Assembly (NCBI RefSeq): GCF_900104035.1
Contig: NZ_FNIT01000002.1
Location: 372,001-436,000 of the forward strand
Direction of reading: 5' to 3'
Source: Aureimonas jatrophae
Lineage (GTDB): Bacteria; Pseudomonadota; Alphaproteobacteria; Rhizobiales; Rhizobiaceae
Length of the DNA: 64,000 nt
In this document: piece by piece, positions 7,951 to 63,021 of the stretch
Layout: each line of letters opens with the position of its first letter
How positions within the stretch are numbered: position 1 is the stretch's first letter
Position numbers and translations under genes: made by a program
The notes under the pieces: generated by a model
The model's database searches: none
Seen by the model: only the letters and a program-made list of their open reading frames with translations
What the model was told of the DNA's origin: nothing

Positions 7951-7961
7951 CGTGGGACCGC

Positions 7962-10969: not shown

Positions 10970-11601
10970 CGCAGCATCCCCAGAAGATAAACGAAGGTGA
11001 AGACGCCGATCCAGATGACGTCCAGGAAGTGCCAGAACATGGACAGGCACATGAGGCGACGCTGGTTGGCCGGGATCAGGCCCTTTCGGGAGACCTGCAC
11101 CATCAGCGTCACCAGCCAGATCGAGCCGAAGAACACGTGAAGGCCGTGGGTGCCGACCAGCGCGAAGAAGGCCGACAGGAAGCCCGAGCGCTGCGGCGTG
11201 GCGCCGATCTCGATCAGGTGGTGGAACTCGTAGAGCTCGATGCCGAGGAAGGCGGCGCCGAAAACGCCCGTGATGCCCAGCCAAGCGAGCGTCGCGTTCT
11301 TGCGGCCGCGCGCCATCTCGAGCATCGCGAAGCCGTAGGTGATCGACGAGAAGAGCAGCATCGCCGTGTTGAGGGCGACGAGTTCCAGATCGAACAGATC
11401 CCTCGGGCCGGGACCGGCGGCGTAGTTGCCGCCGATCACGCCGAAGGTGGCGAACAGGATCGCGAAGATGAGGCAGTCGCTCATCAGGTAGATCCAGAAG
11501 CCGAGCAGCGTGGAGTGACCCTCCTCGTGATGCGGCTCCTCGACGAGGTGGAAGGCCACCTCGCCCTTGGCGTCGACGGTGGTTACGGTCGCCGAACTCA
11601 T
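10966..11601 (-). CDS. cyoC: Cytochrome o ubiquinol oxidase subunit III
   Basis: The 211-residue protein has five hydrophobic helices, matching quinol-oxidase-type subunit III (shorter than the seven-helix cytochrome c oxidase form). Characteristic stretches are [33 protein letters not shown] and [17 protein letters not shown]. The ATG at 11601 overlaps the cyoB stop. Part of the cyoABCD operon. Confidence 0.95.
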
Positions 11602-13610
11602 GCGCGCGCTCCCGCCGCCAGGAGGTCGGTCCGCTGCGCCTCGGTGCGCGACACCACGTCGGCCGGGATGTGGTAGTCCCGGTGGTAGTTGAACGTGTGG
11701 ACGATCGCCGCGCCGACGATGGCGACGAAGCTGAGCGCGGCCAGCCACCAGATGTACCAGATCATGGCGAAGGCAAAGGCGACGCTGAGCACCGACAGGA
11801 CGACGCCCGTGGCCGTGTTCGAGGGCATGTGGATCGGCCGGTAGCCGTCCAGCGGACGCTGGTAGCCGCGAGCCTTCATGTCCGCAAAGGCGTCGCCGTC
11901 ATGCACAACGGGCGTGAAGGCGAAGTTGTAGTCCGGCGGCGGCGAGGAGGTCGCCCATTCCAGCGTGCGCCCGCCCCACGGGTCGCCCGTGGTGTCGCGA
12001 AGCGCGTCGCGGCGCCAGATCGAGACCGCGATCTGCACGAGAAGGGCGCCGATGCCCGCCGCGATCAGAAGCGCGCCCACCGCCGCGACGACGAACCAGA
12101 TCTGGAGCGAGGGGTCGTCGAAGACGCGCATGCGCCGCGTCACGCCCATCAGGCCGAGCACGTAGAGCGGCATGAAGGCGACCCAGAAGCCGACCGTCCA
12201 GCACCAGAACGAGACGTGTCCCCAGAACGTGTCGAGCTTGTAGCCGAAGGCCTTCGGCCACCAGTAGTTGATCGCCGCGAACACGCCGAACAGGACGCCG
12301 CCGATGATGACGTTGTGGAAGTGCGCCACCAGGAACAGCGAGTTGTGCAGCACGAAGTCGGCCGGCGGCACCGCCAGGAGAACGCCCGTCATGCCGCCCA
12401 CCACGAAGGTGAGCATAAAGGCGATGGTCCACATCATCGGCAGGTCGAAGCGCACGCGCCCGCGATACATGGTGAACAGCCAGTTGAAGATCTTGGCGCC
12501 CGTCGGGATCGAGATGATCATCGTCGTGATGCCGAAGAACGAGTTCACGCTCGCGCCCGAACCCATCGTGAAGAAGTGGTGGAGCCACACGAGGTAGGCG
12601 AGGATCGTGATCACGACGGTGGCGTAGACCATCGAGGTGTAGCCGAAGAGGCGCTTGGACGAGAAGGTCGAGGTGACCTCCGAGAAGACGCCGAACAGCG
12701 GCAGGATCAGGATGTAGACCTCCGGGTGGCCCCAGATCCAGATGAGGTTCACGTACATCATGGAGTTGCCGCCCAGATCGCTCGTGAAGAAGTTCGTTCC
12801 CACGTAGCGGTCGAGCGTCAGAAGGGTCAGGACGGCGGTCAGGACCGGGAAGGACGCCACGATCAGGATGTTCGTGCACAGCGACGTCCAGCAGAAGATC
12901 GGCATCTTCATCATGGTCATGCCGGGCGCGCGCATCTTGATGATCGTGCAGATCAGGTTGATGCCCGACAAGGTCGTGCCGACGCCCGCCACCTGCAGCG
13001 CCCAGAGATAGTAGTCCACCCCGACATACGGACTGGACTCGATGCCCGAGAGCGGCGGGAAGGCGAGCCAGCCGGTCTGGGCGAACTCGCCGACGAACAG
13101 CGACATCATGATGACGATGGCGCCCGCCGCGGTCATCCAGAACGAGAAGTTGTTGAGGAACGGGAACGAGACGTCGCGCGCGCCGATCTGCAGCGGCACG
13201 ACGTAGTTCATGAGACCCGTGACGAAAGGCATCGCCACGAAGAAGATCATGATCACGCCATGGGCCGTGAAGATCTGGTCGTAGTGATGGGCGTTCAGGT
13301 AGCCTTCCGAGCCGTTGAAGGCGATCGCCTGCTGGGCGCGCATCATGATGGCGTCGGAGAAGCCGCGCAGGAACATCACGAGGCCGAGCACCATGTACAT
13401 GATGCCGATCTTCTTGTGATCGACGCTCGTGAACCACTCCTTCCAGAGGTAGCCCCAGAGCTTGTACTTGGTGATCAGGAACAGGACAGCGGCGCCGATC
13501 AGCGCGGTGCCGGCGAAGGCGCCCACCACGATGGGCTCGTGGAGCGGGAAGGCCTGAAGCGTCAGGCGCCCGAAGATCGGGCTGACGGGAGGGGAGGTTT
13601 CAAGAGCCAT
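11598..13610 (-). CDS. cyoB: Cytochrome o ubiquinol oxidase subunit I
   Basis: The 670-residue catalytic subunit of a bo3-type quinol oxidase reduces oxygen to water while pumping protons. Heme and copper ligands are visible: His117 (TAHGVI), His295 with Tyr299 (WGHPEVY), His344 and His345 (WLHHFF), His430 and His432 (AHFHNV). Quinol-site residues that distinguish it from cytochrome c oxidases are also present: Arg82 and Asp86 in [10 protein letters not shown], His109 and Gln112 in AHHYDQIF. About 15 membrane helices fit the family. It sits 9 bases after cyoA and overlaps cyoC. Confidence 0.97.
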
Positions 13611-13619
13611 GGCAGGGAA

Positions 13620-14825
13620 TCACAGCGAGCTGAGGAGGTCGAGCGGCGCGTCGGCGCGGCTGATGACGGGTTCGTTGCCCAGCGCGGAGAGCGGTCTGGG
13701 AAGGCCGAGGCCTAGGATCGCGGTGAAGCGGTCGCGCACCTCGTCCTTCGGGCGGTCACGCAGCGCGGCGAGAGCTTCTTCCTCGGTGCAGATCGAGGCG
13801 ACGAAGCGGGGTGCGGGACCGAGCACGGTGGCGCCGCGCGGCGCTCCGGTCCGGTCGACGAGCGGAAGCGTGGCGTTGAGGCTGGCAAGCCCGAGGCCGC
13901 CGCGCGCGTCGATCGCCATCATCTCGCTCATGCACATGCGACCCGGCTCAGCGCACAGGTTGACCACCGCGTCGAAGAGCGCGGGGTCGACACCGGCATA
14001 GCGCATGACCGGAACGCCCTCGCTCGGCTCGGCGAGCTCCAGATAGGTCGTGCGGTCGAGCGTCTGGCCGCTCGTGCGCGCCTCGTTCACCCAGGTGTCG
14101 AAGCCGGCCTGGTCGACCCCGTGGAACTTGAAGCGCATCTTCGAGAAGCCCGCCCCGCTGTAGTGCGAGGAGAAGCCGTCATAGGTGCCGGGGTGGTTGA
14201 TCACGCCGTGCAGCGTCGTTTCCATGCCGGGCATGGCGTAGATCATGCCGGCGAGCGTCGGCACGTAGAAGGCGTTCATCACCGTGGACGCGGTCAGCTT
14301 GAAGCGGATCGGCCGGTCCACCGGCGCCGCGAGGTCGTTGACCGTCGCGATGCCGTATTGCGGCAGGATGAAGAGCCACTTCCAGTCGAGCGCCACGACC
14401 TCGACCTCAAGCGGCTCGACGTTCGCCTCGATCGGCCGGTCGGCCGCCACGCGCCCGAGCGGGCGGTAGGGGTCGAGAAGATGGGTGCCCATCCAGGTGA
14501 AGGCGCCGAGCGCGATGACGATCAGGAGCGGGATCGCCCAGATTACCAGTTCGAGGCGCGTCGAGTGGTCCCAGTCGGGATCGTAGGCCGCGTCCTTGTT
14601 GGCGGCGCGGTAGCGCCAGGCGAACAGGACGGTCAGCACCATGACCGGAATGATCACGAGGAGCATCAGGCCGGTCGAGATCAGGATCAGGTCGCGCTGC
14701 TGGGCGGCGACGTCACCGGCCGGCGCCATGACGACCATGTTGCAGCCGGCCAGCGGCAGCAGGAGAAGGCCAGCGAGAGGAGCGCCGAGGCGCTTCCAGA
14801 CGGATCTGTGGCGAGCTTGGGTCAT
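13620..14825 (-). CDS. cyoA: Cytochrome o ubiquinol oxidase subunit II
   Basis: The 401-residue lipoprotein subunit has a signal peptide ending in the lipobox LAGC with Cys28, then two membrane helices (about 40-65 and 85-110), then a periplasmic cupredoxin domain. The CuA ligand set of cytochrome c oxidases is absent, as expected for quinol oxidases. The C-terminal part after about residue 300 is longer than in E. coli CyoA (315 residues) and holds extra cysteines (LCAEPGRMCMSEM). First gene of the minus-strand operon cyoABCD-SURF1-regBA. The ATG at 14825 is the first possible start after an in-frame stop; an AGGAGG lies further upstream than usual. Confidence 0.95.
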   Translation of the reverse strand: MTQARHRSVWKRLGAPLAGLLLLPLAGCNMVVMAPAGDVAAQQRDLILISTGLMLLVIIPVMVLTVLFAWRYRAANKDAAYDPDWDHSTRLELVIWAIPLLIVIALGAFTWMGTHLLDPYRPLGRVAADRPIEANVEPLEVEVVALDWKWLFILPQYGIATVNDLAAPVDRPIRFKLTASTVMNAFYVPTLAGMIYAMPGMETTLHGVINHPGTYDGFSSHYSGAGFSKMRFKFHGVDQAGFDTWVNEARTSGQTLDRTTYLELAEPSEGVPVMRYAGVDPALFDAVVNLCAEPGRMCMSEMMAIDARGGLGLASLNATLPLVDRTGAPRGATVLGPAPRFVASICTEEEALAALRDRPKDEVRDRFTAILGLGLPRPLSALGNEPVISRADAPLDLLSSL

Positions 14826-51039: not shown

Positions 51040-51825
51040 CTAGGTTTCGATCTCGCCCTTGGCGAAGGGCAGGAAATGGATGTGGGGCCGCCCATGATGG
51101 GGCGAGGTCGCAACGCGGGCGTCCACCGCGAAGACCTCGCGCAGCAGCGTCTCGGTCAGCGTCTCGGCGGGCGGCCCGCTGGCCACGACCCGGCCCCGGC
51201 TCAGGACCACCACCCGGTCGCAGAACAGGGCGGCATGGTTCAAGTCGTGCAGCGAGACGATGCAGGTCACGTCGAGCCCGGCGACGAGCTGCAGGAGGCC
51301 GATCTGGTGGTGGACGTCGAGGTGGTTCGTCGGCTCGTCGAGGATCAGCTCGCTCGGCGTCTGGGCGAGCGCGCGCGCGATATGGACACGCTGCCGCTCG
51401 CCGCCCGAAAGGTTCTGCCACCGGTCGAAGCGCCTGTCCGTCAGGCCGGTGCGGGCCAGCGCGTCCGCGACCGCCGCCTCGTCGGCGCCCGTCCAGCCCG
51501 AAAAGGGCGAGCGATGCGGGAAGCGGCCGAGCTTCACGACGTCGCAAACCCGCAGGTCCGCGTTGGTCGCCCCGTGCTGCTCGACGAAGGCGATGCGCCG
51601 GGCGAGGCGACGCCGTCCAAGCGCGCGCAGGTCCTCGCCGTCCACCTCGACTTGGCCCGCATCCGGGCGGCGCAACCCCGCCAGGATGCGAAGGAGCGAG
51701 GTCTTGCCCGAACCGTTGGGCCCGATCAGGCCGAGCACCCGGCCGGGCTCGGCCTCGAGCGACACACGATCGAGGATCTGGCGCTTTCCGGCCCGCCACG
51801 AGATGCCTTTGGCTCGGATGCTCAT
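51040..51825 (-). CDS. ABC transporter ATP-binding protein (FecE/BtuD/HmuV-type)
   Basis: The 261-residue ATPase of the iron-siderophore, heme and cobalamin importer family has Walker A GPNGSGKTSLLRIL near residue 36, signature LSGGERQRVHIARALAQ near 138, Walker B LILDEPTNHLDVHHQ near 160 and H-loop VSLHDLNHAALFCD near 190. Its start overlaps the permease stop (ATGA). The exact substrate cannot be assigned; no TonB-dependent receptor is in the window. Confidence 0.92.
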   Translation of the reverse strand: MSIRAKGISWRAGKRQILDRVSLEAEPGRVLGLIGPNGSGKTSLLRILAGLRRPDAGQVEVDGEDLRALGRRRLARRIAFVEQHGATNADLRVCDVVKLGRFPHRSPFSGWTGADEAAVADALARTGLTDRRFDRWQNLSGGERQRVHIARALAQTPSELILDEPTNHLDVHHQIGLLQLVAGLDVTCIVSLHDLNHAALFCDRVVVLSRGRVVASGPPAETLTETLLREVFAVDARVATSPHHGRPHIHFLPFAKGEIET

Positions 51826-52862
51826 GGCGCCCGCTGCAGGCGGAAGAGAATCGCGGCAAAGACCGGCACGCCGACCAGCGCGGTCACGACGCCGATGGGC
51901 AGCACCTGCTGTGGGATCAGGACGCGCGAGGCGATGTCGGCGAGAACCATGAAGATCGCGCCCGCCACCGCACAGGCCGGCAGGAGGCGCCCGTGGACCG
52001 GGCCCACGACGAAGCGCGCGGCGTGAGGCACGACAAGGCCGACGAAGCCGATCGACCCGACCATGCTGACCACCGTCGCGGTCATCACGGCGGTGATCGC
52101 GAAGAAGCCGAGCCGTGCGCGTCCGACATCGACGCCGAGCGCGGCGGCCGCCTCGTCGCCGAAGGCGAAGGCATCGAGAACGCGGGCAAAGAAGAGGCAG
52201 AGCGCGAGGCCGAGGCCCATCACCGCCGAGACCAGCGCGAACTCGGGCCAGCGCACGCCGCCGAAGCTGCCGAGCAGCCAGAACATGACATCGCGGGCCT
52301 GCTGCGCGTTGCCCGAGGTGGTGACGACATAGGAGGTCGCGGCGTTGAAGAGCTGCGAAGCGGCGACGCCGGCCAGAATCGTGCGGTCCGCCCCGCCGCG
52401 CGTCCCGCTCGACAGAAGCGCCACGAAGAAGAACGAGGCGAACGCGCCCAGGAACGCCCCGGCCGAGAGCGAGACCGCGCCCGCGCCGATCCCGAGGATC
52501 ACCACCGCGACCGCGCCGGTCGAAGCGCCCGCCGAGATGCCGAGAACGTAGGGCTCGGCCAGCGGATTGCGCAGCAGCGCCTGCATGATCGCGCCCGACA
52601 TGGCAAGGCCCGCGCCACAGAAGGCGGCGACCAGCGCCCGGCTGAGGCGGTAGTCCCAGATCACCGTCTCGTGGATACGGTTGAGCTCGGCCGTGGTCCA
52701 GCCGAGGCGGTTGGTGACCGCGAGCCCGGTCGTCGAAAGCGGGATCGGCAGGTCGCCGATGCCGACGCTCACCCCGATGACGAGGCCGACCGCGCCGAGC
52801 GAGACGAGAAGGAGGCCGGCGAGCGTCGCCGCGCCCCGCAGCGGGCCGGCCCCAAGGCTCAC
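51822..52862 (-). CDS. FecCD family ABC transporter permease
   Basis: The 346-residue permease has about ten hydrophobic helices and family motifs RLSRALVAAFCGAGLAMSGA near residue 70, MQALLRNPLAEPYVLGISAG near 95 and GFVGLVVPHAARFVVGPVHG near 278. It imports Fe3+-siderophore, heme or vitamin B12-type ligands. It begins with GTG at 52862, overlapping the binding-protein stop (GTGA). Confidence 0.93.
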   Translation of the reverse strand: MSLGAGPLRGAATLAGLLLVSLGAVGLVIGVSVGIGDLPIPLSTTGLAVTNRLGWTTAELNRIHETVIWDYRLSRALVAAFCGAGLAMSGAIMQALLRNPLAEPYVLGISAGASTGAVAVVILGIGAGAVSLSAGAFLGAFASFFFVALLSSGTRGGADRTILAGVAASQLFNAATSYVVTTSGNAQQARDVMFWLLGSFGGVRWPEFALVSAVMGLGLALCLFFARVLDAFAFGDEAAAALGVDVGRARLGFFAITAVMTATVVSMVGSIGFVGLVVPHAARFVVGPVHGRLLPACAVAGAIFMVLADIASRVLIPQQVLPIGVVTALVGVPVFAAILFRLQRAP

Positions 52863-53887
52863 TGGCGCAGACCGAGCGCCTTCAACTGCTCGGCCACCTG
52901 CTCGGCGCCGTAGATCGTGCGCACGGTCGGGTTCATGGCCTGCCCGTCCATCACCACGATCGCCTTGTTGCGCACCGCCGGCATCTGGCTGGTCGCGGGA
53001 TCGGTGTTGAGGAACTCGATCTTGGCGGCCGGCTTGTCGAGCGCCCAGCGGTTGCGATCGAGGCTCGCCACGACGATCACGTCGGGCGCGGCGGCGATGA
53101 TGCTTTCCCAGCCGAGCGCCGGCCATTCCGCCTCGGTCTGGATCGCATTGGTGCCGCCCAGGATATCGGCGATGAAGCCCGAGGCGCCGTTCTTGCCGCC
53201 GAGATAGGCATCGGCGGACGGGGAGGGGCTGGAGAACCAGAACAGGTAGGAGAGCTTCTTCTCGCCGCCGGCCGGCGAGGCGGCCCGCAGGGCGTCCTCG
53301 CGCGACTTGAAGTCCGCGATCAACGCGCGTCCGCGATCCTGGACGTCGAAGATCCGCGCCAGTTCGTCGATCTCCGCGTAGAGGTCGCTCGTGTTCCAGA
53401 GCCGTTCGCGTGCGCCGTAGGCGTCGGTGCCCTCCCGCTTGGCCAGACACGTGCTGGGCGACAGGTAGGTCGGCACGCCCACGCGCTCGAAGTCCTCGCG
53501 CTTGGCGACCTTGCTGTCGGGGCCGAGCAGCGTGGGCAGGGCGGCGGCCACGAAGTCCGGGTTTTCCGCCAGGATCGACTCGAAGGTCGGGAACTCGACG
53601 GTCAGGAGCTTGACCTTCGCATTGGCCTCGGCGAGCTCGGGCAGGACCTGGCTCGGCCAGAAGGCCGTACCCACCATACGGTCCGCCAGGCCCAGAAGAA
53701 GCAGGATCTCGGCGCTGTTCTGGCCGAGGCCGACCGCTCGCTCCGGCGCCTTCTGGAAGGTGACCTCGATGCCGCAGTTCTCGATCGTCAGGGGGTAGCG
53801 TGTCGCTTCCGCCGAGGCAGGCCGGACCGCCGCGAGAAGGACGAGCGCGAGGCTCGAGGCGGCCAGAAACGTCGACGGGAAAGCCAA
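52859..53887 (-). CDS. Iron-siderophore/cobalamin-type ABC binding protein
   Basis: The 342-residue class III solute-binding protein has a signal peptide of AFPSTFLAASSLALVLLAA type ending ASA near residue 27, two lobes joined by a rigid helix, and family stretches CGIEVTFQKAPERAVGLGQN, SAEILLLLGLADRMVGTAFW and NPDFVAAALPTLLG. TTG 53887 is preferred as start because GAGG lies 8 bases upstream and it opens the signal peptide directly; a TTG at 53950 would add 21 unlikely residues. Four scattered cysteines are unusual but not diagnostic. First gene of the importer operon. Confidence 0.87.
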   Translation of the reverse strand: MAFPSTFLAASSLALVLLAAVRPASAEATRYPLTIENCGIEVTFQKAPERAVGLGQNSAEILLLLGLADRMVGTAFWPSQVLPELAEANAKVKLLTVEFPTFESILAENPDFVAAALPTLLGPDSKVAKREDFERVGVPTYLSPSTCLAKREGTDAYGARERLWNTSDLYAEIDELARIFDVQDRGRALIADFKSREDALRAASPAGGEKKLSYLFWFSSPSPSADAYLGGKNGASGFIADILGGTNAIQTEAEWPALGWESIIAAAPDVIVVASLDRNRWALDKPAAKIEFLNTDPATSQMPAVRNKAIVVMDGQAMNPTVRTIYGAEQVAEQLKALGLRQ

Positions 53888-53984
53888 GGGGCGAACCTCA
53901 AACGGAGGGTGGGCGGGCGAACGGCTCCCTAGCGTGACCGGTCGCGGCAAACAAGATTGCGGGTGTCATGTTTTTCGCGCCGCC

Positions 53985-56033
53985 TCACGGCACGCTCAAG
54001 GCCGCGCTCCGGCACGGATGGGCCAGAAGGTCGGCGAGCTCGTCGTCGAGGTGAATCAACGACAACGAGACGCCGGCCATGTCGAGCGAGGTATAGTAGG
54101 GGCCGACAAGCGAGGAGACGACCTCGACGCGGCGCGCCCGAAGGCGTTGCGCGACGCGGCGGTGAACGACGTAGAGCTCCATGGCCGGGGTTCCGCCGAG
54201 CGAGTTCACGAGAACCGCGACCCGGTCGCGCTCACGGAGGCGCATCTCGTCGAAGAGGCGGTCCACCAGAAGGTCGGCGACCGCGTCGGCGCTGGCCAAC
54301 GCCTCGCGCGAGACGCCGGGCTCGCCGTGGACGCCGACGCCGATCTCCATGTCACCGGGGCCCAGCGCGAAGCTCGGTCGCCGCGTCTCGGGCATGGAGC
54401 CCCGCTCCAGCGCGACGCCCATCGAAACGGTGCGGGCGGCCGCGCGCCGCGTCACGGCCTCGCATTCGGCGAGCGACATCATCCGGTCGGCCGCGGCGCC
54501 CGCCACCTTGAACACGAAGACGTTGCCCGCGACCCCGCGCCGCGAGCCGATCGCGTCGGCGGGCGCCGAGGCGACGTCGTCGGTGGTCACCACGGAGCGA
54601 ACCGCGATGCCGGCCTCGGCCGCCTCCTCGGCGGCCATGTCGAAGTTCATCACGTCGCCGGAGAAGTTGCCGTAGACGCACAGAACGCCGGCGCCTCCGT
54701 CGATGGCGCGCATCGCGGCCAGGATCGGGGCCGGCGGCGGGGCGGCGAAGACGTTGCCCACCGCCGCCGCATCAGCCAGGCCCGCGCCGACATAGCCCCA
54801 GAAGGCCGGCTCGTGGCCCGCACCGCCGCCGATCAGGACTCCGACCTTCCCGGGGCGCGGTCCGTGAACGGCTCGCACGGCGCGGGGCGCTCGCGGGACC
54901 GGGGCGATCAGGTCGCGGTGGGCGGCGAAGGCGCCTTCGAGCGCCTCGTCCACCGCCTGACGGGGATCGTTCAGGAGCTTCTTGGTCTGAGTGCGAAGGG
55001 GCAGGGCACGCGGCGCGGCGGCCAGCGCCTCGCGCCGCGGCGGCTCGGTCCAGCCGTCGGCGGCCAGGACGCCCCAACCCGTCACCGCGTCGGTCACGAG
55101 AACGCTGGCGTAACCGCCACGCAGGGCGCCGAGCACCGCCGGCACCTTGTCGGACCCGCCCACCACGGCCACGCGCTGGGGAATGGCGCGCAGCGCCGCG
55201 AGGTCGAGGCCGATCGTGCGTCCGTCGAGCGGACCCCCCACCACGTCGCCCGAGGCCGAGATGAAGCGTCCCGCGATCGAGCCGATCGCCCGCTCCTCGT
55301 AGTGATGATGCTCGATGCCCTCGAAGAAGCCGCTCGTATGGATCGTGCTCTCGGGACGCAGCGAGGAGATGCCGAAGACGATGCGGTTGGCCTCCGCCAG
55401 AACGGTCATCTGCTCGGCGAGCACGGTTTCGGCGAGCAGCATGTCGCGCATGGCCGCGCTCGACACGATGGCCGGGGCCGACAACGGAATGCAGCGCGCC
55501 CCCATCGCCTCGGCCAGGCGCGAGGCGCAGGCCTCCGGCGTCCACGGGATCTTGGCGGTGGTGCCACCGGTCGCCTGCACGACGCGCAGGTCGGTCAGGC
55601 CCGGCAGGCGCAGCGCTTCGGCTAGCGCCAGGACGGTGCGCCCCCAGGTCACGGCGGTCGTGTCGCCCGAGCGCACGAGGCGTGCGAGGGTCTGAGCGCC
55701 GGCCGCGCCGAGGCGCGCGATCAGCGAGCGCTCGCCGCCCGTGGTCGGCACGACGAGGCAGTCCTCCAGCCCGAAGCGCTCGCGCAGCGCCCCGGCCAGC
55801 GTCAGCGCGCGGAACTGGCGCGGCTCGATCTCGACCGTCACGAGGCCGCGCGCACGCGCTTCCGCCAGGTAGCTGTTCACGGACGCGCGCGAGATGCCCA
55901 TCTCGGCGGCGATGTCGCCCTGCGTCATGTTCTCTTCGTGGTAGAGCCACGAGGCCCACAGCAGCGCGTCGTCGCCGAAGCGCAGCGGGATCACCGGTTG
56001 CTCGCCCGCAGGGCGTCCGGAGGGGCGGGCCAT
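53985..56033 (-). CDS. SorC-type transcriptional regulator fused to DhaK
   Basis: A 682-residue two-part protein. Residues about 20-65 are a helix-turn-helix (MTQGDIAAEMGISRASVNSY) and 75-325 a SorC/DeoR sugar-binding domain, with RVVFGISS-like IVFGISSLRP near 218, GSIAGRFISASGDVVGGPLD and LRGGYASVLVTDAVTGWGVL near 303. Residues about 349-682 are a complete DhaK domain with His407 in GGGAGHEPAF, Asp460 in GNFSGDVMNF and the substrate-binding His569 in GVGVHGEPGV. All three residues match those that bind dihydroxyacetone-like ketoses in DhaK. The start overlaps the DhaL gene stop (ATGA), so both are made together. It probably senses a short ketose and controls the divergent ABC operon. Confidence 0.9.
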   Translation of the reverse strand: MARPSGRPAGEQPVIPLRFGDDALLWASWLYHEENMTQGDIAAEMGISRASVNSYLAEARARGLVTVEIEPRQFRALTLAGALRERFGLEDCLVVPTTGGERSLIARLGAAGAQTLARLVRSGDTTAVTWGRTVLALAEALRLPGLTDLRVVQATGGTTAKIPWTPEACASRLAEAMGARCIPLSAPAIVSSAAMRDMLLAETVLAEQMTVLAEANRIVFGISSLRPESTIHTSGFFEGIEHHHYEERAIGSIAGRFISASGDVVGGPLDGRTIGLDLAALRAIPQRVAVVGGSDKVPAVLGALRGGYASVLVTDAVTGWGVLAADGWTEPPRREALAAAPRALPLRTQTKKLLNDPRQAVDEALEGAFAAHRDLIAPVPRAPRAVRAVHGPRPGKVGVLIGGGAGHEPAFWGYVGAGLADAAAVGNVFAAPPPAPILAAMRAIDGGAGVLCVYGNFSGDVMNFDMAAEEAAEAGIAVRSVVTTDDVASAPADAIGSRRGVAGNVFVFKVAGAAADRMMSLAECEAVTRRAAARTVSMGVALERGSMPETRRPSFALGPGDMEIGVGVHGEPGVSREALASADAVADLLVDRLFDEMRLRERDRVAVLVNSLGGTPAMELYVVHRRVAQRLRARRVEVVSSLVGPYYTSLDMAGVSLSLIHLDDELADLLAHPCRSAALSVP

Positions 56034-56698
56034 CAGCGCGTCCCGCTCCGGCGGACGATCGCCGCGTGCGCCTCGCGCATCGCCTCGACCAGGATGGCCG
56101 CGGAGGCCGCGCCCGGATCCACGTGCCCGAGGCTTCGCGTGCCCAGACGCGCCGCGCGGCCCTTCGAGGCCGTCATGGCCCGCGTCGCTTCGCGCCCGTC
56201 CGCCGCGGCCAGCGAGGCGGCCGCCAGCGCGTCCTGAACGCCCGATCCCTCGTTGAGCGCGGCGCTCGCCGCCCGCACCGCCGGGCCGAACGCGTCCATC
56301 ATGGTCTTGTCGCCGGGCGCTGCGCCGCCGCGCCGCGCGATGCCATCCGCCAGGCCAGCCAGCAGATCGATCAGCGCCCGGTCGTCGAGTTCATCCCGAC
56401 CTGCCAGGCGTCGTCCCGCTTCCGCCAGCCCGCCGGCATAGAGCGGGCCGGCCGTCGCCCCGACCGCATCCAGAAACGAGCGGGCGGCGATCGCCAGCAG
56501 CTCCGCCGCCGCGACGCCGCGCGAGGCCGCGGCCTGCGTGTCGCGGGCAACCGCCGCGAAGCCCTCGGACATGGTGCGTCCGTGATCGGCGTCGCCGATC
56601 GCCCCATCGAGTTCGCCGAGCGCGTCGCGTGCCTCGTCGAGGCGCAGCGCGACGGTGCGCAGAATGTCGACGAGCAGATCGGCGGTCAGTCGGGTCAT
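56033..56698 (-). CDS. DhaL-type kinase subunit paired with the SorC-DhaK fusion
   Basis: A 221-residue DhaL domain protein. The nucleotide/metal motif DGAIGDADHGRTM sits at residues 31-43 (family DGxxGDGDHG), with GPLYAGGLAEAGRRL near 85 and APGDKTMMDAFGPAV near 127. DhaL supplies the nucleotide for phosphorylation of a ketose held by DhaK. The ATG at 56698 starts the minus transcript, and its stop overlaps the SorC-DhaK start. The middle Asp-Ala-Asp replaces the usual Asp-Gly-Asp, a mild change. A second DhaL is encoded at 62380. Confidence 0.9.
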   Translation of the reverse strand: MTRLTADLLVDILRTVALRLDEARDALGELDGAIGDADHGRTMSEGFAAVARDTQAAASRGVAAAELLAIAARSFLDAVGATAGPLYAGGLAEAGRRLAGRDELDDRALIDLLAGLADGIARRGGAAPGDKTMMDAFGPAVRAASAALNEGSGVQDALAAASLAAADGREATRAMTASKGRAARLGTRSLGHVDPGAASAAILVEAMREAHAAIVRRSGTR

Positions 56699-56768: not shown

Positions 56769-56806
56769 ATTAGCCGATTGACATATTCCGACGTCAATCG
56801 AATATT
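56769..56806. promoter_or_regulatory. Symmetric divergent promoters with embedded palindrome
   Basis: CGATTGAC (56775-56782) and GTCAATCG (56793-56800) form a perfect 8-base inverted repeat with a 10-base spacer. On the plus strand TTGACA (56778-56783) and AATATT (56801-56806) are 17 bases apart; on the minus strand TTGACG (56797-56792) and GCTAAT (56774-56769) are also 17 apart. The two promoters would fire toward the ABC operon and toward dhaL/sorC-dhaK and cannot both be occupied at once. Confidence 0.65.
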
Positions 56807-56875
56807 GTCGAAGTCGGCATCCGGGAGGGAATCAGTCGGCGGGGGCTCACGGTTCGGGCTCCGGGAGGACATGCC

Positions 56876-58357
56876 ATGACAACCCCGCTTCTGAAGGTGG
56901 AAGGGCTGCGCAAGTCCTTCGGCGGCGTCGCCGCGCTGCGCGACGGCCGCTTCGAGCTGGAGGCCGGCTCGGTGCACGCCCTGTGCGGCGGCAACGGCGC
57001 GGGCAAGTCCACCTTCCTCACGATCGTCATGGGCATACAGAAGCGCGACGGCGGCACGATCTGGCGCAACGGCCAGCCGGTCGATTTCTCCAGTCCCGCC
57101 GATGCCCTGAAGGCCGGCATCGCGATCATCGAGCAGGAGCTGAGCCCGGTTCCGCACATGAGCGTCGCCGAGAACATCTTCCTCGGCCGCGAGCCCTCGC
57201 GCCGTTTCGGCGGCATCGACTTCCGGGCCATGAACCGGCGGGCCCAGGCGTTGCTCGACGAGCTGGGCTTTGCGATCGACCCGCGCCAAGCCATGGCGAC
57301 GCTGTCGGTCGCCCAGATGCAGCTCGTCGAGATCGCCAAGGCGCTGAGCCACGACGCCGAGGTCATCTTCATGGATGAGCCGACCTCGGCCATCGGCGAG
57401 CGCGAGGCGCAGCACCTCTTCGCCGCGATCGAGCGGCTGAAGGGGCAGGGGCGCGGGATCGTCTACGTCTCGCACCGCCTGTCCGAGATCTTCCAGATCG
57501 CCGACAGCTACACCGTGTTCCGCGATGGCGCCTATGTCGCGAGCGGCAAGCTCACCGAGACCGACCGTCCCGGCCTCATTCGCATGATCGTCGGGCGCGA
57601 GCTCGGCGAAGAGTACATCAAGACCAACACGCCGAGCGAGACCGTCGGGCTCTCGGTGGACGGCCTCAGCAGCCCGGGCCGCATCGACGACATCTCGTTT
57701 TCCGTGCGCAAGGGCGAGATCTTCGGCATCTACGGCCTGATGGGTTCGGGGCGCACCGAGATCTTCGACGCGCTGTTCGGCCTCGACCCGAAGGCGCAGG
57801 GGCGCATCGCACTGGACGGCGCGCCGGTCACCGTGCGCCGCCCGGCGGACGCGATGGCGGAAGGTCTCGCCTTCGTCACCGAGGACCGCAAGAACAGCGG
57901 GCTGAACCTCCACGACACGGTGCGCGGCAACATCGCGCTGGCAAGCCTGCCCGAGATGAGCCCCGCCTTCGCCATGCGCGGGCGCGAGGAGGCCGAGGCG
58001 AGCCGGACCATGATCGAGCGCTTCCGCATCAAGGCGGCGCGCGACACGATGCCGGTGTCGGGCCTGTCGGGCGGAAACCAGCAGAAGGTCGTGCTCGGCA
58101 AGTGGTTCCTGCGCAAGCCTCGCGTCCTCCTCCTCGACGAGCCGACGCGCGGCGTCGATGTCGGGGCCAAGCGCGAGATCTACCGCATCATCTGCGAGTT
58201 CGCCGCCGAAGGCGGAACCGTGGCCATGATCTCCTCGGAGATCGACGAGGTTCTCGGCCTGTCGGACCGCGTCATGGTGATGCGCGGAGGGCGCTCGGCC
58301 GGCATCCTCGCGCGTGGCGAGGCGAGCGCGCAGTCGCTCGTCCACCTCTCGACCTGA
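56876..58357 (+). CDS. Sugar ABC transporter ATP-binding protein (RbsA/MglA type)
   Basis: The 493-residue CUT2 ATPase has two fused nucleotide-binding domains. N-domain: Walker A CGGNGAGKSTFLTIV near residue 38, degenerate signature LSVAQMQLVEIAKAL near 144, Walker B FMDEPTSAIGE near 162. C-domain: degenerate Walker A GLMGSGRTEIFDAL near 288, signature SGLSGGNQQKVVLGKWF near 395, Walker B LLLDEPTRGVDVG near 418. A GGGAGG site lies 7 bases before the ATG. First gene of an operon with permease, binding protein, SDR, DhaK and DhaL, so it likely imports a short polyol or ketose rather than ribose. Confidence 0.94.
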   Translation: MTTPLLKVEGLRKSFGGVAALRDGRFELEAGSVHALCGGNGAGKSTFLTIVMGIQKRDGGTIWRNGQPVDFSSPADALKAGIAIIEQELSPVPHMSVAENIFLGREPSRRFGGIDFRAMNRRAQALLDELGFAIDPRQAMATLSVAQMQLVEIAKALSHDAEVIFMDEPTSAIGEREAQHLFAAIERLKGQGRGIVYVSHRLSEIFQIADSYTVFRDGAYVASGKLTETDRPGLIRMIVGRELGEEYIKTNTPSETVGLSVDGLSSPGRIDDISFSVRKGEIFGIYGLMGSGRTEIFDALFGLDPKAQGRIALDGAPVTVRRPADAMAEGLAFVTEDRKNSGLNLHDTVRGNIALASLPEMSPAFAMRGREEAEASRTMIERFRIKAARDTMPVSGLSGGNQQKVVLGKWFLRKPRVLLLDEPTRGVDVGAKREIYRIICEFAAEGGTVAMISSEIDEVLGLSDRVMVMRGGRSAGILARGEASAQSLVHLST

Positions 58358-58401
58358 ACCTCAAACGACGCGCCGCGCCCGCCGGAATAGGGAACCGCCA
58401 C

Positions 58402-59406
58402 GTGACCGACATCAACGCGAAAGCCGCCGACCCGGCGCTGGGCGCCGAGCGCCGTCGCCTCCTGATCCAGGAATACGGCATCTTCATCGCCTTCCTGATC
58501 CTGGTCGGAGTCCTGTCGGTCGCCAGCCCCTACTTCCTGACCGCCGGCAACATCTCCAACGTCCTCCTGCAGACGTCGATCAACGGCATCCTCGCCATCG
58601 GCATGACCTTCGTCATCCTGACGCGCGGCATCGACCTGTCGGTCGGCTCGGTGGTGGCGCTGGCGGGCATCGTCAGCGCGAGCTTCGTTACCACCACGGC
58701 GAACGCGAGCGTGGCGGGCGGGCCCTATCCCGTGGTGCTGGCGCTGGCCATCGGCATCGGCGTCGGCGTCGTCAGCGGCGCGATCGTCGGCGCGATCGTC
58801 TCGCGCTTCAACGTCCCCGCCTTCGTGGCGACGCTCGGCATGCTGTCGGCGGCGCGCGGCATGACCCTGATCTACGGCGGCGGACGGCCCGTGCCGGGCC
58901 TCGTCCCCGACTTCCGCTGGATCGGCACCGGCAACATCCTCGGCGTGCCCATGCCCGTCGTGATCCTGGCGGTGGTCTTCGCCGCCTCCTGGTGGCTGCT
59001 CTCGTCCACCCGCTTCGGCCGCTACATCTACGCGGTGGGCGGCAACCCGCACGCCGCCAAGACGTCCGGCATCAACGTCGCCCGCATCCGCTTCCTGGTC
59101 TACGTGATCTCGGGGGCGCTCTCGGGCCTGGCCGGCATGATCCTGTCGGCGCGCACCGGCTCGGCCCTGCCGCAGGCGGGCGTCGCCTACGAGCTCGACG
59201 CGATCGCGGCGGTCGTGATCGGGGGCACCTCGCTGTCGGGCGGCGTCGGGCGCGTCACCGGCACGCTGATCGGGGCCCTCATCATCGGCGTCATGAACAA
59301 CGGCCTCGATCTCATGGGCATCCAGTCCTACTACCAGCAGATCCTGAAGGGAGCCCTGATCGTGGGCGCGGTGATGCTGGACCAGAAGCGCAGCCACGCG
59401 GCCTGA
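58402..59406 (+). CDS. Sugar ABC transporter permease (RbsC type)
   Basis: The 334-residue CUT2 permease has about ten hydrophobic segments. Family marks are TSINGILAIGMTFVILTRGI near residue 50, DLSVGSVVALAGI, GRYIYAVGGNPHAAKTSGIN near 207 and AVVIGGTSLSGGVGRVTGTL near 270. The start is GTG at 58402 behind AGGGAA, 44 bases after the ATPase stop. It forms the pore of the importer. Confidence 0.93.
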   Translation: MTDINAKAADPALGAERRRLLIQEYGIFIAFLILVGVLSVASPYFLTAGNISNVLLQTSINGILAIGMTFVILTRGIDLSVGSVVALAGIVSASFVTTTANASVAGGPYPVVLALAIGIGVGVVSGAIVGAIVSRFNVPAFVATLGMLSAARGMTLIYGGGRPVPGLVPDFRWIGTGNILGVPMPVVILAVVFAASWWLLSSTRFGRYIYAVGGNPHAAKTSGINVARIRFLVYVISGALSGLAGMILSARTGSALPQAGVAYELDAIAAVVIGGTSLSGGVGRVTGTLIGALIIGVMNNGLDLMGIQSYYQQILKGALIVGAVMLDQKRSHAA

Positions 59407-59422
59407 CGCATCGGAGAGTTTC

Positions 59423-59440
59423 GCCCGGCCGCCGCCGGGC
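59423..59440 (+). promoter_or_regulatory. Hairpin between permease and binding-protein genes
   Basis: GCCCGGC-CGCC-GCCGGGC, a perfect 7-base stem with a 4-base loop, 16 bases after the permease stop. Followed by GAAGGGGGGGG rather than a T-run, so it is more likely a stabiliser or processing hairpin than a terminator. Confidence 0.45.
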
Positions 59441-59502
59441 CGAAGGGGGGGGCGTGCGCCATTCCGGGCCGCCCCGACGGTTCCACAGGGAGGATACCTC
59501 AC

Positions 59503-60483
59503 ATGAAGACCTTGCTGCTCGCCCTCGGGCTCGCGACCGCGCTGTCGGCGCCGGTTCTCGCGCAGGAGAAGCTGAAGATCGGCGCGACCGTCTACGGCCT
59601 CAACGCCGAGTTCATGCAGATCTGGACCGCCGCGCTCCAGAAGCACCCCGCCGTGCAGAGCGGCGAGGTCGAGGTGACCGTGTTCGACGGCCGCTACGAC
59701 GCGCTGGTCCAGCAGGAGCAGTTCAACACGATGATCACGCAGAAGTATAACGCGATCATCTTCGTGCCGATGGACATCGAGGCGGGCGCGGCGCCCGTGC
59801 AGGCGGCGGTCGACGCCGGCATCCCGGTGGTTGGCTCGAACGCCCGCGTCAACTCCGACGTCCTCACCTCCTATGTCGGCTCCAACGACGTCGAGGCGGG
59901 CGAGCTCGAGGCCAAGGCCGTGCTCGACAAGATGGGCTGCAAGGGCAACGTCGTGATCATCGAGGGTCCGATCGGCCAGAGCGGTCAGATCCAGCGCCTC
60001 GAGGGCAACCAGAAGGCGCTGGCCGCCTGCCCGGACGTCAAGGTCCTGGAGCAGCAGACCGGCAACTGGTCGCGCGCCGAGGCCCAGACCCTGATGGAGA
60101 ACTGGCTGACCTCGCATCCCGGCCAGATCAACGGCGTGATCGGCCAGAACGACGAGATGGCGCTGGGCGCGATCGAGGCGATCAAGGCCGCCGGCCTCAA
60201 CGTCTCGGACTTCGCGATCGCGGGTGTCGACGGCGTGACGGATGCGATCAACGCCGTGAAGGCGGGCGAGATGGCCTCGATCCTGCAGGACGCGAACGCA
60301 CAGGCGCAAGGCGCGCTCGACATCGCGATCAAGGCTGTGAAGCCCGACTACCAGCCCCAGTCGGCGATCTGGAAGCAGTACCCCTCGATGGGCTGGGAAG
60401 ACGGCAAGGCCAAGACCTACCTCGTGCCCTGGACCCCGGTCACGACCGCCAACGCCGACGAACTCCTGAAGTCGCGCCAGTAG
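59503..60483 (+). CDS. ABC transporter sugar-binding protein (RbsB type)
   Basis: The 326-residue periplasmic-binding protein of the LacI/ribose-binding fold has a signal peptide (MKTLLLALGLATALSAPVLA, cleaved near residue 20). Family stretches are KIGATVYGLNAEFMQIWTAA, NAIIFVPMDIEAGAAPVQAA, NDEMALGAIEAIKAAGL near 220 and FAIAGVDGVTDAINAVKAGE. A strong GGGAGG ribosome site precedes it. It delivers the sugar or polyol to the importer. The ligand is unknown; downstream DhaK/DhaL genes suggest a short-chain polyol or ketose. Confidence 0.94.
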   Translation: MKTLLLALGLATALSAPVLAQEKLKIGATVYGLNAEFMQIWTAALQKHPAVQSGEVEVTVFDGRYDALVQQEQFNTMITQKYNAIIFVPMDIEAGAAPVQAAVDAGIPVVGSNARVNSDVLTSYVGSNDVEAGELEAKAVLDKMGCKGNVVIIEGPIGQSGQIQRLEGNQKALAACPDVKVLEQQTGNWSRAEAQTLMENWLTSHPGQINGVIGQNDEMALGAIEAIKAAGLNVSDFAIAGVDGVTDAINAVKAGEMASILQDANAQAQGALDIAIKAVKPDYQPQSAIWKQYPSMGWEDGKAKTYLVPWTPVTTANADELLKSRQ

Positions 60484-60492
60484 CATGACCTT

Positions 60493-60519
60493 GCGGCGGC
60501 CGGGCGACCCGGCTGCCGC
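60493..60519 (+). terminator. Strong hairpin after the binding-protein gene
   Basis: GCGGCGGCCGGG (60493-60504) and CCCGGCTGCCGC (60508-60519) form a 12-pair stem with one G-T pair and a 3-base loop, 10 bases after the stop. It could partly terminate transcription, lowering expression of the downstream SDR and kinase genes. Confidence 0.55.
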
Positions 60520-60557
60520 ACCCCTTAGCCGTTCCCATTCTTGCCCGGAGCCTCCCG

Positions 60558-61328
60558 TTGAGCGACGCCGCCCCTTCCATCGATCTCGACTTCTCGCTGG
60601 CAGCCAAGGTCGCCCTCGTGACCGGCGGCGGCTCGGGGATCGGCCAGGCCATCGCGCAGGCGCTGAGTGCCAAGGGCGCGCGCGTCGCGCTGCTCGACAA
60701 CAATCTCCAGGCCGCCGAGGCGACCGCCGCGACCTTGCATGACGCGCGCGCCTTTCGCTGCGACGTCGCCGACCCCGCTTCCGTCGAGGAGGCGGTCGGC
60801 GCGGCGGCGGATGCCTTCGGGCAGCTCGACATCGTGGTGAACAGCGCGGGCATCGTGGCGCTGGCCCCCGCCGAGGCGCTGACGCTCGACCAGTGGGACC
60901 GCACCATCGCGATCAACCTCAAGGGCACCTTCCTCGTGAGCCAGGCCGCCGGCCGCCGCATGATCGCGGCTGGTCGAGGCGGGCGCATCGTCAATCTCGC
61001 CTCGCAGGCCGGCACGGTCGCGATCGAGGAGCACGTCGCCTACTGCGCCTCGAAGTTCGGCGTGATCGGCCTCACCAAGACGCTCGCCGCCGAATGGGGT
61101 CGCCACGGCATCACCGCCAACACGATCTCGCCGACCGTCGTCCTCACCGAACTCGGCAAGGCCGCCTGGGCGGGCGAGAAGGGCGAGGCGGCCAAGAAGC
61201 GCATCCCGACCGGCCGCTTCGCCTTCCCCAACGAGATCGCGGCCGCGGCCCTGTTCCTCGCCTCCGACGCCGCCGCCATGATCAACGGCGCCGACCTCGT
61301 GGTCGACGGCGGCTACACGATCCTCTGA
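60558..61328 (+). CDS. SDR family NAD(P)-dependent oxidoreductase
   Basis: The 256-residue classical short-chain dehydrogenase has cofactor motif VTGGGSGIGQAIAQAL near residue 22, NSAGIV near 93, and the catalytic Ser-Tyr-Lys set in NLASQAGTVAIEEHVAYCAS followed by K near residues 140-160. Asp-Asn after strand 2 (ALLDNN) suggests preference for NAD. The C-terminus is VVDGGYTIL. TTG start at 60558 behind GGAG. It probably oxidises an imported polyol to a ketose that the DhaK/DhaL pair then phosphorylates, as in known tetritol routes. Confidence 0.92.
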   Translation: MSDAAPSIDLDFSLAAKVALVTGGGSGIGQAIAQALSAKGARVALLDNNLQAAEATAATLHDARAFRCDVADPASVEEAVGAAADAFGQLDIVVNSAGIVALAPAEALTLDQWDRTIAINLKGTFLVSQAAGRRMIAAGRGGRIVNLASQAGTVAIEEHVAYCASKFGVIGLTKTLAAEWGRHGITANTISPTVVLTELGKAAWAGEKGEAAKKRIPTGRFAFPNEIAAAALFLASDAAAMINGADLVVDGGYTIL

Positions 61329-61366
61329 TCCCCCCAAAGCCCCTTTTCTGAACGGACCCCAGTCCC

Positions 61367-62365
61367 ATGCAGCGCTTCATCAACGACCCCGATCAGGTGG
61401 TCGACGACACCGTCCGCGGCTTCGTGAAGGCCCATTCCGACCTCGTGCGCCTGTCGGAGCGGAACCGGCGCGTCGTGGTCTCGACGGCTGCGCCGAAGGC
61501 GGGACGCGTCGGCGTCGTGACGGGCGGCGGCTCGGGCCACGAGCCGGCCTTCATCGGCTACACCGGCCGCGGGCTGGTGGACGCGGTGGCGGTGGGTGAG
61601 CTCTTCTCCTCGCCGACCGCGAAAAGCTTCCACGACGCCATCAAGGAGGCGAGCGGCGGGGCGGGCGTCGTCTGCCTCTACGGCAACTACGCCGGCGACA
61701 ACATGAACGTGAAGATGGCGCAGAAGCTCGCAGCCAAGGACGGGATCGAGGTCGCGGTCGTAGTCGCCAACGACGACGTCTGCTCGGCGCCCGCAGCCGA
61801 GCGCGAGAAGCGCCGGGGCGTCGCGGGCGAAATCTTCATGTGGAAGATCGGCGGCGCCAAGGCGGCGGAAGGGGCGAACCTCGAGGAGGTGCGCGCCACC
61901 GCCCAGAAGGCGATCGACAGCTGCCGCTCGATCGGGGTGGGTCTCGGCCCCTGCACGCTGCCGGCCGTCGGTCATCCGAACTTCCAGATCGAACCCGGCA
62001 CGATGGAGGTCGGCATCGGCCACCACGGCGAGCCCGGCATCCGCGTGGAGCCGCTGAAGACGGCGGCCGAGGTCGCCCGCGACATGGCGCGCATCGTGCT
62101 CGACGACCACGACCTGGCCTCGGGAACCGAGGTGGCCGTGCTCGTCTCCGGCCTCGGCGCGACGCCGCTGAACGAACTCTACATCCTGAACGACACGATC
62201 GAGGAGGAGATCCGCGCGCGCGGCCTCACGATTCACCGCACCTATGTCGGCAACTACTTCACCTCGCTCGAGATGGTCGGCGCGACGCTCACCGTCGTGG
62301 CGCTCGACGACGAGCTGAAGCGGCTTCTGGACGCCGAGGCGCGCGCGCCCGGCTTCGCGGGTTGA
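61367..62365 (+). CDS. DhaK-type ketose kinase subunit
   Basis: The 332-residue DhaK domain protein has GGGSGHEPAFIGY with His58, YGNYAGDNMNVKMAQKLA with Asp111, and GIGHHGEPGI with the substrate-binding His220. These residues hold dihydroxyacetone or erythrulose-like ketoses as a hemiaminal. The segment RTYVGNYFTSLEMVGATLTV is typical of the C-terminal region. The adjacent DhaL gene and lack of any DhaM/PTS gene suggest an ATP-dependent kinase. A second DhaK occurs in the SorC fusion at 53985-56033. Confidence 0.93.
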   Translation: MQRFINDPDQVVDDTVRGFVKAHSDLVRLSERNRRVVVSTAAPKAGRVGVVTGGGSGHEPAFIGYTGRGLVDAVAVGELFSSPTAKSFHDAIKEASGGAGVVCLYGNYAGDNMNVKMAQKLAAKDGIEVAVVVANDDVCSAPAAEREKRRGVAGEIFMWKIGGAKAAEGANLEEVRATAQKAIDSCRSIGVGLGPCTLPAVGHPNFQIEPGTMEVGIGHHGEPGIRVEPLKTAAEVARDMARIVLDDHDLASGTEVAVLVSGLGATPLNELYILNDTIEEEIRARGLTIHRTYVGNYFTSLEMVGATLTVVALDDELKRLLDAEARAPGFAG

Positions 62366-62379
62366 GGGAGACGGGACCG

Positions 62380-63021
62380 ATGCAGAGCTTTCCCAATGCC
62401 GGGGGCGGCGCGATCGTCGAGGCGATGGCCGCGCGGATCGTCGAGAACCGGGCCTATCTCTCGGAGATCGACGGCAAGATCGGCGACGGCGATCATGGCG
62501 TGAACATGGCCAAGGGCTTCGGCATGGCGGCCGAGCGCCTCGCCGGTCAGGACGCGACGCTGTCGCAGGCCATGGCGCAGCTCGGCGACGTCCTGATGGG
62601 CGAGATCGGCGGGTCCATGGGGCCGCTCTACGGCATGACCTTCACCGAGTTCGCCGAAGCCATCGAGGGCCAGGACGCGATCGATGCCGCCCTGTTCTCG
62701 GCCATGCTGCACAAGGGGCTGGAGGGCGTGCAGTCGATCGGCTCCGCCCAGGTCGGCGACAAGACGCTGCTCGACACGTTCGTGCCGGCGGTGGACGCCT
62801 TCGATGCTGCGACCGGCGAAGGCCGGTCCTTCGCCGACGCGCTCGACGCGCTGGTGGCGGCGGCCGAGCGGGGCCGCGACTCCACGGTCGACCTCGTCGC
62901 CAAGGTCGGCCGCGCGAGCCGGCTCGGCGAGCGCTCGCGCGGTGTTCTGGATGCCGGCGCGACGTCATGCGCCATGATCCTCGGCACGCTGGCCGAGGGG
63001 GCGAAGGCGCGCCTCGCCTGA
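62380..63021 (+). CDS. DhaL-type kinase subunit
   Basis: The 213-residue DhaL protein has the metal/nucleotide motif DGKIGDGDHG at residues 31-40, GGSMGPLYGMTFTEFAEA near 77 and QVGDKTLLDTFVPAVDAF near 124. It donates phosphate from nucleotide to the ketose bound by the DhaK encoded 14 bases upstream. It keeps the canonical GDGDHG, unlike the other DhaL at 56033. ATG at 62380 after GAGGGAG. Confidence 0.93.
   Translation: MQSFPNAGGGAIVEAMAARIVENRAYLSEIDGKIGDGDHGVNMAKGFGMAAERLAGQDATLSQAMAQLGDVLMGEIGGSMGPLYGMTFTEFAEAIEGQDAIDAALFSAMLHKGLEGVQSIGSAQVGDKTLLDTFVPAVDAFDAATGEGRSFADALDALVAAAERGRDSTVDLVAKVGRASRLGERSRGVLDAGATSCAMILGTLAEGAKARLA

Follow-up and report, generated by a model that had tools for sequence, protein, structure and literature searches.

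A conserved SorC-DhaK fusion in Aureimonas jatrophae and its predicted role in the control of a ketose operon

A fusion of a SorC-type transcriptional regulator with a complete DhaK, a subunit of dihydroxyacetone (DHA) kinase, is encoded in a stretch of Aureimonas jatrophae DNA (NZ_FNIT01000002.1) of 64,000 nucleotides, hereafter the window, in which all coordinates are given. The fusion is proposed, with a probability of roughly 45%, to be the local repressor of an operon for ketose uptake and catabolism and also, with its partner DhaL1, a working ATP-dependent ketose kinase whose product would be the inducer. The architecture, its conservation, the content of the surrounding gene module and the operator-like site were seen directly in the sequences.

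The fused chain and its kinase half

One open frame carries, in this order along its 682 residues, a helix-turn-helix (HTH), a SorC effector domain (Pfam Sugar-bind) and a complete DhaK (Pfam Dak1), as an earlier sequence-only reading of this stretch had described; the three retained catalytic residues and the overlap of the fusion start with dhaL, also noted there, were found again. The elements concerned are as follows.

53985..56033 (-): SorC-DhaK fusion (DhaK half referred to as K1), 682 residues; one open frame; Pfam Sugar-bind and Dak1
55833..55967 (-): HTH DNA-binding part, residues about 23-67; HTH-type Pfam models at about 29-72
55077..55814 (-): SorC effector-binding domain, residues 74-319; Pfam Sugar-bind; Foldseek matches DeoR, SorC, LsrR and CggR
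54984..55058 (-): linker joining the two halves, residues about 326-350; variable in the alignment; predicted local distance difference test (pLDDT) below 50 at 334-342
54003..54983 (-): DhaK domain, residues 351-677; Pfam Dak1 at 366-677
54813-54815 (-): His407, kept in all readable rows
54654-54656 (-): Asp460, kept in all readable rows
54327-54329 (-): His569, kept in all readable rows
56033..56698 (-): dhaL1 (L1), cognate ATP-binding subunit; Pfam Dak2; TIGR02365 at 156.1 bits against 138.3

The combination of an HTH with a Sugar-bind effector domain that marks the SorC family is present by both Pfam and fold matches, the effector domain scoring 184.9 bits against PF04198 (cut-off 27; E 2.1e-54) and the fused DhaK 375.3 bits against PF02733 (cut-off 31.4; E 2.4e-112). 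The AlphaFold model (mean pLDDT 82.5, predicted template modelling score 0.53) has two confident halves and a low-confidence joint at 334-342, and the mutual placement of the halves in it is not reliable; the HTH helices are placed at 23-32, 38-45 and 49-61, with low confidence in that region. The halves were matched separately by Foldseek, the DhaK half to Escherichia coli DhaK, including DhaK-DhaL and DhaR-DhaK entries, and the SorC half to DeoR, SorC and LsrR; no match among the 50 listed covers both halves. SorC-family repressors were matched by phmmer as well.

Relatives were sought with the SorC part in the genomes of GTDB species; the loci discussed below are the best 80 by similarity of 257 relatives and lean to close ones. 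SorC and DhaK lie in one open frame at 78 of the 80, and the other two (L099, L137) end at contig ends. A frameshift or assembly error at the joint, which the earlier reading had named as grounds for refuting its proposal, is ruled out by this in-frame joint shared by loci of other genomes, and such an artefact is assigned a practically nil probability.

The substrate-binding His and the catalytic His and Asp that characterise DhaK are all found in the fused domain. Alignment with E. coli DhaK places His407, Asp460 and His569 in its GHEP, GD and GVGIHGEPG motifs, and the three residues are presumably equivalent to its His56, Asp109 and His218. In the K1 alignment of the 78 loci and the window, His407 is kept in 79/79 readable rows, Asp460 in 78/78 and His569 in 78/78; the one row gapped at the latter two positions is taken to be the truncated L070. 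The median ratio of nonsynonymous to synonymous substitution rates (dN/dS), over 134 close pairs of loci that are not independent of one another (K1 identity 86-98.5%, dS 0.1-1.6 in all seven genes), is 0.069 for the SorC half, 0.059 for K1, 0.114 for L1, 0.064 for K2 and 0.101 for L2, the latter two being a free-standing second DhaK and its partner encoded nearby. Since no readable copy lacks any of the three catalytic residues and the constraint is like that on the free paralogue K2, the fused DhaK looks like an active kinase rather than a dead sensor.

The stop codon of dhaL1 and the ATG of the fusion share one base (TGATG). DhaL1 has the Asp triad and the GDKTM of E. coli DhaL, and its Asp31, Asp36, Asp38 and His39 are conserved in 77/77 readable rows, so that the fused DhaK is accompanied by a DhaL partner with the Mg-nucleotide Asp triad expected in the family. 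Pairwise identities over 72 loci are correlated between K1 and L1 (r 0.94) and between K2 and L2 (r 0.92), compared with 0.69-0.78 for the cross pairs, which fits two separate cognate kinases, although gene linkage also raises such correlations. Catalytic residues are retained in both pairs. K1 and K2 have 76 near-invariant positions in common and 19 group-specific differences, some of them beside active-site motifs.

The conserved module, its putative operator and its distribution

Divergently from the fusion, positions 56,876 to 63,021 (+) carry genes for a ribose-type ATP-binding cassette (ABC) importer, a dehydrogenase of the short-chain dehydrogenase/reductase (SDR) type and the second kinase pair.

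56778..56812 (no strand): predicted operator-like inverted repeat, a conserved site overlapping the sigma70-like promoter of the divergent operon
56876..58357 (+): ABC importer ATPase, ribose type; Pfam ABC_tran; best NCBIfam model RbsA, below cut-off
58240..59406 (+): ABC importer permease; the stretch scanned, the true start lying further downstream and being uncertain; Pfam BPD_transp_2 at residues 104-377 of the stretch
59503..60483 (+): periplasmic sugar-binding protein; Pfam Peripla_BP_4
60558..61328 (+): SDR dehydrogenase, GolD/DthD family; NF005309 at 385 bits against a cut-off of 286
61367..62365 (+): dhaK2 (K2), free-standing second DhaK; Pfam Dak1; apart from the fused DhaK in the tree
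62380..63021 (+): dhaL2 (L2), partner of dhaK2; Pfam Dak2 (scanned from 62389); start codon read from the sequence

The earlier reading had taken dhaL1 as the only partner of the fusion, thereby missing the second pair (61367-63021), and had made no mention of the GolD/DthD-type dehydrogenase. A second dhaK/dhaL pair lies beside the fusion in 76 of the 77 loci with visible flanks, two of these 76 pairs being of the K1 type. L1 was found at 77 of the 78 loci with the fusion, and K2 and L2 at 74 each. The sole locus without L1 is L098, a contig of 4.2 kb, which is also one of the four without K2, being cut; L088 and L126 have a K1-type pair and L078 has no second pair within its flanks. In L126, from Metarhizobium album (7177-13935), a free K1-type dhaK and a dhaL stand just before the fusion and another SorC gene after it, replacing the K2 pair. 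Relative to the fusion, L1 is upstream in Aureimonas and the Rhodobacterales and downstream in most rhizobia. K2 and L2 form one open frame in L082, L085, L086, L093, L104 and L110 (several Rhodobacterales and others), K1 and L1 staying separate there. The dhaL before the fusion extends over two frames in Limimaricola cinnabarinus LL-001 (L102, about 3588-4389) and over one in another strain of the species (L109), perhaps reflecting a sequencing error.

The transporter varies. Most loci have the ribose-type ABC importer with the dehydrogenase; a two-permease ABC importer occurs instead at L077, L079, L085, L088, L095, L096, L130 and L132, eight loci chosen by hand from gene order with L078, which has both kinds, left out. 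Two-permease importers are also present in Paracoccus, Roseibium and S. meliloti records and are 28-39% identical to the transporter of the window. The dehydrogenase gene does not adjoin the kinases at some loci. As the transporter differs among loci, the constant module, judged from gene content, is the fusion, L1, K2 and L2, together with the conserved operator-like site.

This site was recognised from a block around TTGACA common to the intergenic region of the window and seven Aureimonas loci. A dyad score of at least 15 was obtained in 32 of the 54 regions upstream of the ABC ATPase gene, compared with 1.7% of 540 shuffles, the half-site having been read off the Aureimonas regions, which are themselves among the 54. 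Single bases were shuffled for the dyad score and two-base blocks for a second, variable-gap model, neither of which keeps exact dinucleotide counts. The consensus from thirty sites is TTGACATTTGTCGA-N7-TNGAATATTGTCAA. The spacer of the window site is one base shorter, so that it was missed by the fixed-spacing model and found by the variable-gap model (34.2 at 56778). With the latter, 40 of 50 held-out loci gave scores exceeding those of their own five shuffles, and 25 exceeded the maximum of all 400 shuffles (17.8). A sigma70-like promoter is predicted within the site (TTGACA-17-AATATT, 56778-56806), and the columns beyond its two hexamers (TGTCG; the G and T after ATT) are no less conserved than the hexamer columns.

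At seven of the eight loci with the other transporter the site scores 20.5-41.6 and stands in front of K2, as it likewise does in S. meliloti (L009). The predicted operator thus accompanies the fusion and not the transporter. For L126 the best site is about 6 kb away from the dhaK, and for L102 it is not in any nameable promoter. A relaxed form of the site pattern has a single occurrence in the A. jatrophae genome, at this locus. The conserved site would be a two-part operator at a regulated promoter, of the kind associated with SorC-family repressors, and it resembles the two-part operator of DeoR, given in the accessible text of PMC11229326 as ATTGAACAAAATTTCAATTACCAATTTACATATGTTCAA. The DNA target at 56769-56806 suggested in the sequence-only reading does fall in the region of the conserved site, the extent of which is corrected to 56778-56812.

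Many soil and marine alphaproteobacteria carry the fusion. Its nearest named relatives are from Aureimonas, and the hosts are by title nearly all alphaproteobacteria (Aureimonas, Paracoccus, Gemmobacter, Rhizobium, Shinella, Mesorhizobium, Martelella, Thalassospira, Labrys and others); one copy (L112) is in a metagenome-assembled genome labelled Ectothiorhodospiraceae (Gammaproteobacteria), as a result of transfer or of a mis-binned contig. The fusion was found in 15 of 21 genomes of its own genus (split over two contigs in one of them), in 5/40 of other genera of the family and in 0/40 of other families of the order. In wider scans, with two or three candidates scored per genome, it was detected at E <= 1e-150 in 24 of 397 genomes of the order, including G543 and a partial copy in G749, and in 5 of 398 of the phylum, all within its own class; a sparse sample of the class gave 1/385, the A. 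jatrophae genome itself. The copy in G543 (C167:7476-9503), from the same order, has three in-frame stops (one TGA, two TAA) and is apparently decayed.

In a DhaK tree of 87 rows, for which 20 of the 80 loci were picked by hand for spread, the 24 fused DhaK rows all group in a single clade (100/100). The 21 K2 rows are placed together on a separate branch (100/100 against the fused rows), which they share with four free DhaKs; one of these belongs to a Raoultella plasmid operon that also encodes RpiB, transaldolase, transketolase, DhaL and an unfused SorC. This topology is most simply explained by one fusion event. An origin of K1 as a recent copy of dhaK2 was rejected, given the separate, well-supported branches and the free-standing DhaKs (such as L031, L032, L033, L038 and L151) that are its nearest relatives. 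A third DhaK-like stretch of the A. jatrophae genome (L003, G000:C16:98090-99118) has a long branch.

Two further gene neighbourhoods were noted. In Ponticoccus alexandrii (L162) the K2-L2-L1-fusion set adjoins inositol catabolism genes. In the window, 51040-53950 holds three minus-strand genes that by eye seem to encode an iron or cobalamin ABC importer (ATPase, permease and binding protein).

Proposed mechanism and rival explanations

Kinase activity, DNA binding, repression and induction by the product are the predicted elements of the proposed scheme. In the absence of substrate, the SorC part would occupy 56778-56812 and cover the promoter of the ABC-SDR-dhaK2-dhaL2 operon. Sugar entering at a basal level would yield a ketose, to be phosphorylated by the fused DhaK and DhaL1; the ketose phosphate would bind the SorC effector domain and release the repressor, after which DhaK2/DhaL2 would carry the bulk flux. 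That the repressor thus makes its own inducer, the DhaK half with DhaL1 and ATP phosphorylating the ketose and the product passing to the SorC half of the same assembly, is a tentative proposal that stands short of an even chance. If true, induction would report kinase flux, that is ketose and ATP together, and not a metabolite pool, and the bulk work would fall to the free second pair.

ABC importers deliver unphosphorylated sugar, and regulators responsive to sugar phosphates face a start-up problem, in that the first molecules imported in this way need phosphorylating. A repressor with a built-in, fully conserved kinase would overcome this difficulty in a single chain and would offer a clear case of an enzyme-regulator making its own effector, with a defined putative operator and partner. 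The fusion might also serve as a modular ketose biosensor. The product of the classical DhaK is dihydroxyacetone phosphate (DHAP); the product of the fused kinase is probably the inducer, by analogy with DHAP for the SorC-family CggR. A phosphorylated product is favoured over DhaL contact as the signal because the described SorC-type effector domains respond to sugar phosphates. According to the accessible text of PMC11229326, the operators of DeoR and CggR have two parts and are bound by tetramers; deoxyribose-5-phosphate is the compound to which DeoR responds, and CggR is released by fructose-1,6-bisphosphate and by DHAP.

The substrate is probably a ketose, either a tetrulose or a triose. 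The dehydrogenase family, the presence of RpiB beside the operon at 6 of the 80 loci, a triose-phosphate isomerase gene beside the operon of Thalassospira marina and the Raoultella operon point to a tetrulose such as erythrulose, feeding the pentose phosphate pathway, DHA also being possible. A triose-phosphate-isomerase query had no match in the 80 loci or the window. A single RpiB is encoded in the A. jatrophae genome, some 5 kb away from another SorC-type gene that is followed by an apparent FGGY kinase (L005 and L158; G000:C5:275709-281694), an arrangement resembling that of erythritol loci with EryD. ATP is probably the phosphoryl donor, since the only EIIA-man match of the genome sits on another contig, beside HprK-/HPr-like open reading frames (by eye), and no dhaM was found for the module. 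A kinase driven by the phosphotransferase system is disfavoured, there being no DhaM (EIIA-man) partner at the locus.

Several observations weigh against the proposed scheme. The effector pocket is unlike that of LsrR and DeoR: the Asp of AVGD is aligned with Ser, Val, Cys or Thr, and the DeoR lysine with Thr155 of the fusion, both residues presumably having functional roles in the effector pocket. At 10 of the 50 held-out loci no site scored above the locus's own shuffles, some of these being on contigs without the start of the operon, and a score of only 11.4 was obtained at L088, one of the loci with the other transporter. Between distant species K1 and L1 diverge faster than K2 and L2, mean pairwise identity over 64 loci being 67% for K1 against 79% for K2 and 53% for L1 against 69% for L2. 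The 19 group-specific positions may also mean that the substrates of K1 and K2 differ.

These 19 positions, the two separate clades and the catalytic residues kept in both pairs are equally what would be expected of a plain bifunctional protein, in which K1/L1 and K2/L2 act on two ketoses (e.g. two erythrulose isomers), the fusion serves only for co-expression and the SorC part senses a pathway metabolite independently. Co-expression alone needs no single chain, however, and the fused rows form one clade with the fusion kept at 78 of 80 loci; no unfused K1-type arrangement of SorC and DhaK was seen among the 80 loci, which were collected with a SorC-part query that leans to fusions. Such a protein is considered improbable. 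Slightly better placed, though still unlikely, is signalling by contact as in DhaR, in which the fused DhaK would hold the ketose covalently and its loaded or phosphorylating state, conveyed through DhaL1 docking, would alter DNA binding, so that the SorC pocket need not bind the product. The high rank of DhaK-DhaL and DhaR(N)-DhaK complexes of E. coli among the Foldseek matches, the constant presence of DhaL1 and its close tracking of K1, and the flexible linker of the AlphaFold model are in keeping with it; the SorC effector half, however, is intact and constrained like the kinase half, suggesting ligand binding, and the SorC domains described in the accessible text of PMC11229326 respond to small sugar phosphates.

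A catalytically dead sensor that merely binds the ketose has a precedent in the DhaK paralogue acting as co-activator in Lactococcus (title of PDB 2iu4), but the catalytic residues and the DhaL partner are kept throughout. K1 scores 225.3 bits against the NCBIfam DhaQ model (TIGR02362, cut-off 413.25) and 346.6 bits against the dhaK1 equivalog (TIGR02363, cut-off 406.25), being below both cut-offs and thus not filed under the latter either; a dead sensor is regarded as very improbable. A trigger-enzyme type of role, as the sequence-only reading had suggested, is supported for the fusion by its architecture and conservation, with the catalytic residues kept and the fused DhaK and its DhaL changing together across loci.

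Comparison with known systems

The earlier reading knew of no described example of this architecture. RefSeq does name it, as "bifunctional sugar-binding transcriptional regulator/dihydroxyacetone kinase subunit DhaK", on annotated plasmid homologues, giving a product name only and describing no partner, operator or mechanism; no published study of the architecture or the locus was found in a literature search that was partial in cover and mostly without subscription journals.

DeoR, CggR, LsrR and SorC have, like the fusion, an HTH and a NagB-like effector domain; they end after this domain, without a kinase, and differ from the fusion in pocket residues at aligned positions. DhaK and DhaL of E. 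coli act in control as well as in catalysis, with DhaR as a separate protein of another family than SorC. The DhaR/DhaK/DhaL system is represented among the Foldseek matches of the fusion by the titles of PDB 3pnl, 4lrx and 4lry, and its kinase is driven by phosphoenolpyruvate through DhaM, as stated in the accessible text of PMC6643234. Unlike in that system, regulator and DhaK form one chain in A. jatrophae, where no dhaM was found.

DhaQ of Lactococcus is a separate protein that works with another type of regulator. Acting with DhaS, it is a DhaK relative used in regulation (titles of PDB 2iu4 and 2iu6; NCBIfam TIGR02362); the fused DhaK differs from it in scoring higher against the kinase-subunit model than against the DhaQ model. 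Tetritol pathways with DthD and erythrulose kinases reportedly combine a GolD/DthD-type dehydrogenase with Dak kinases, as the operon of the window does; at some fusion loci, however, the dehydrogenase is not beside the kinases, and the substrate here is a predicted one. Among regulators with DNA-binding and catalytic parts in one chain, BirA and NadR are well known, and BirA makes its own effector, as proposed for the fusion; the folds and pathways of both are unrelated to those of the SorC-DhaK chain.

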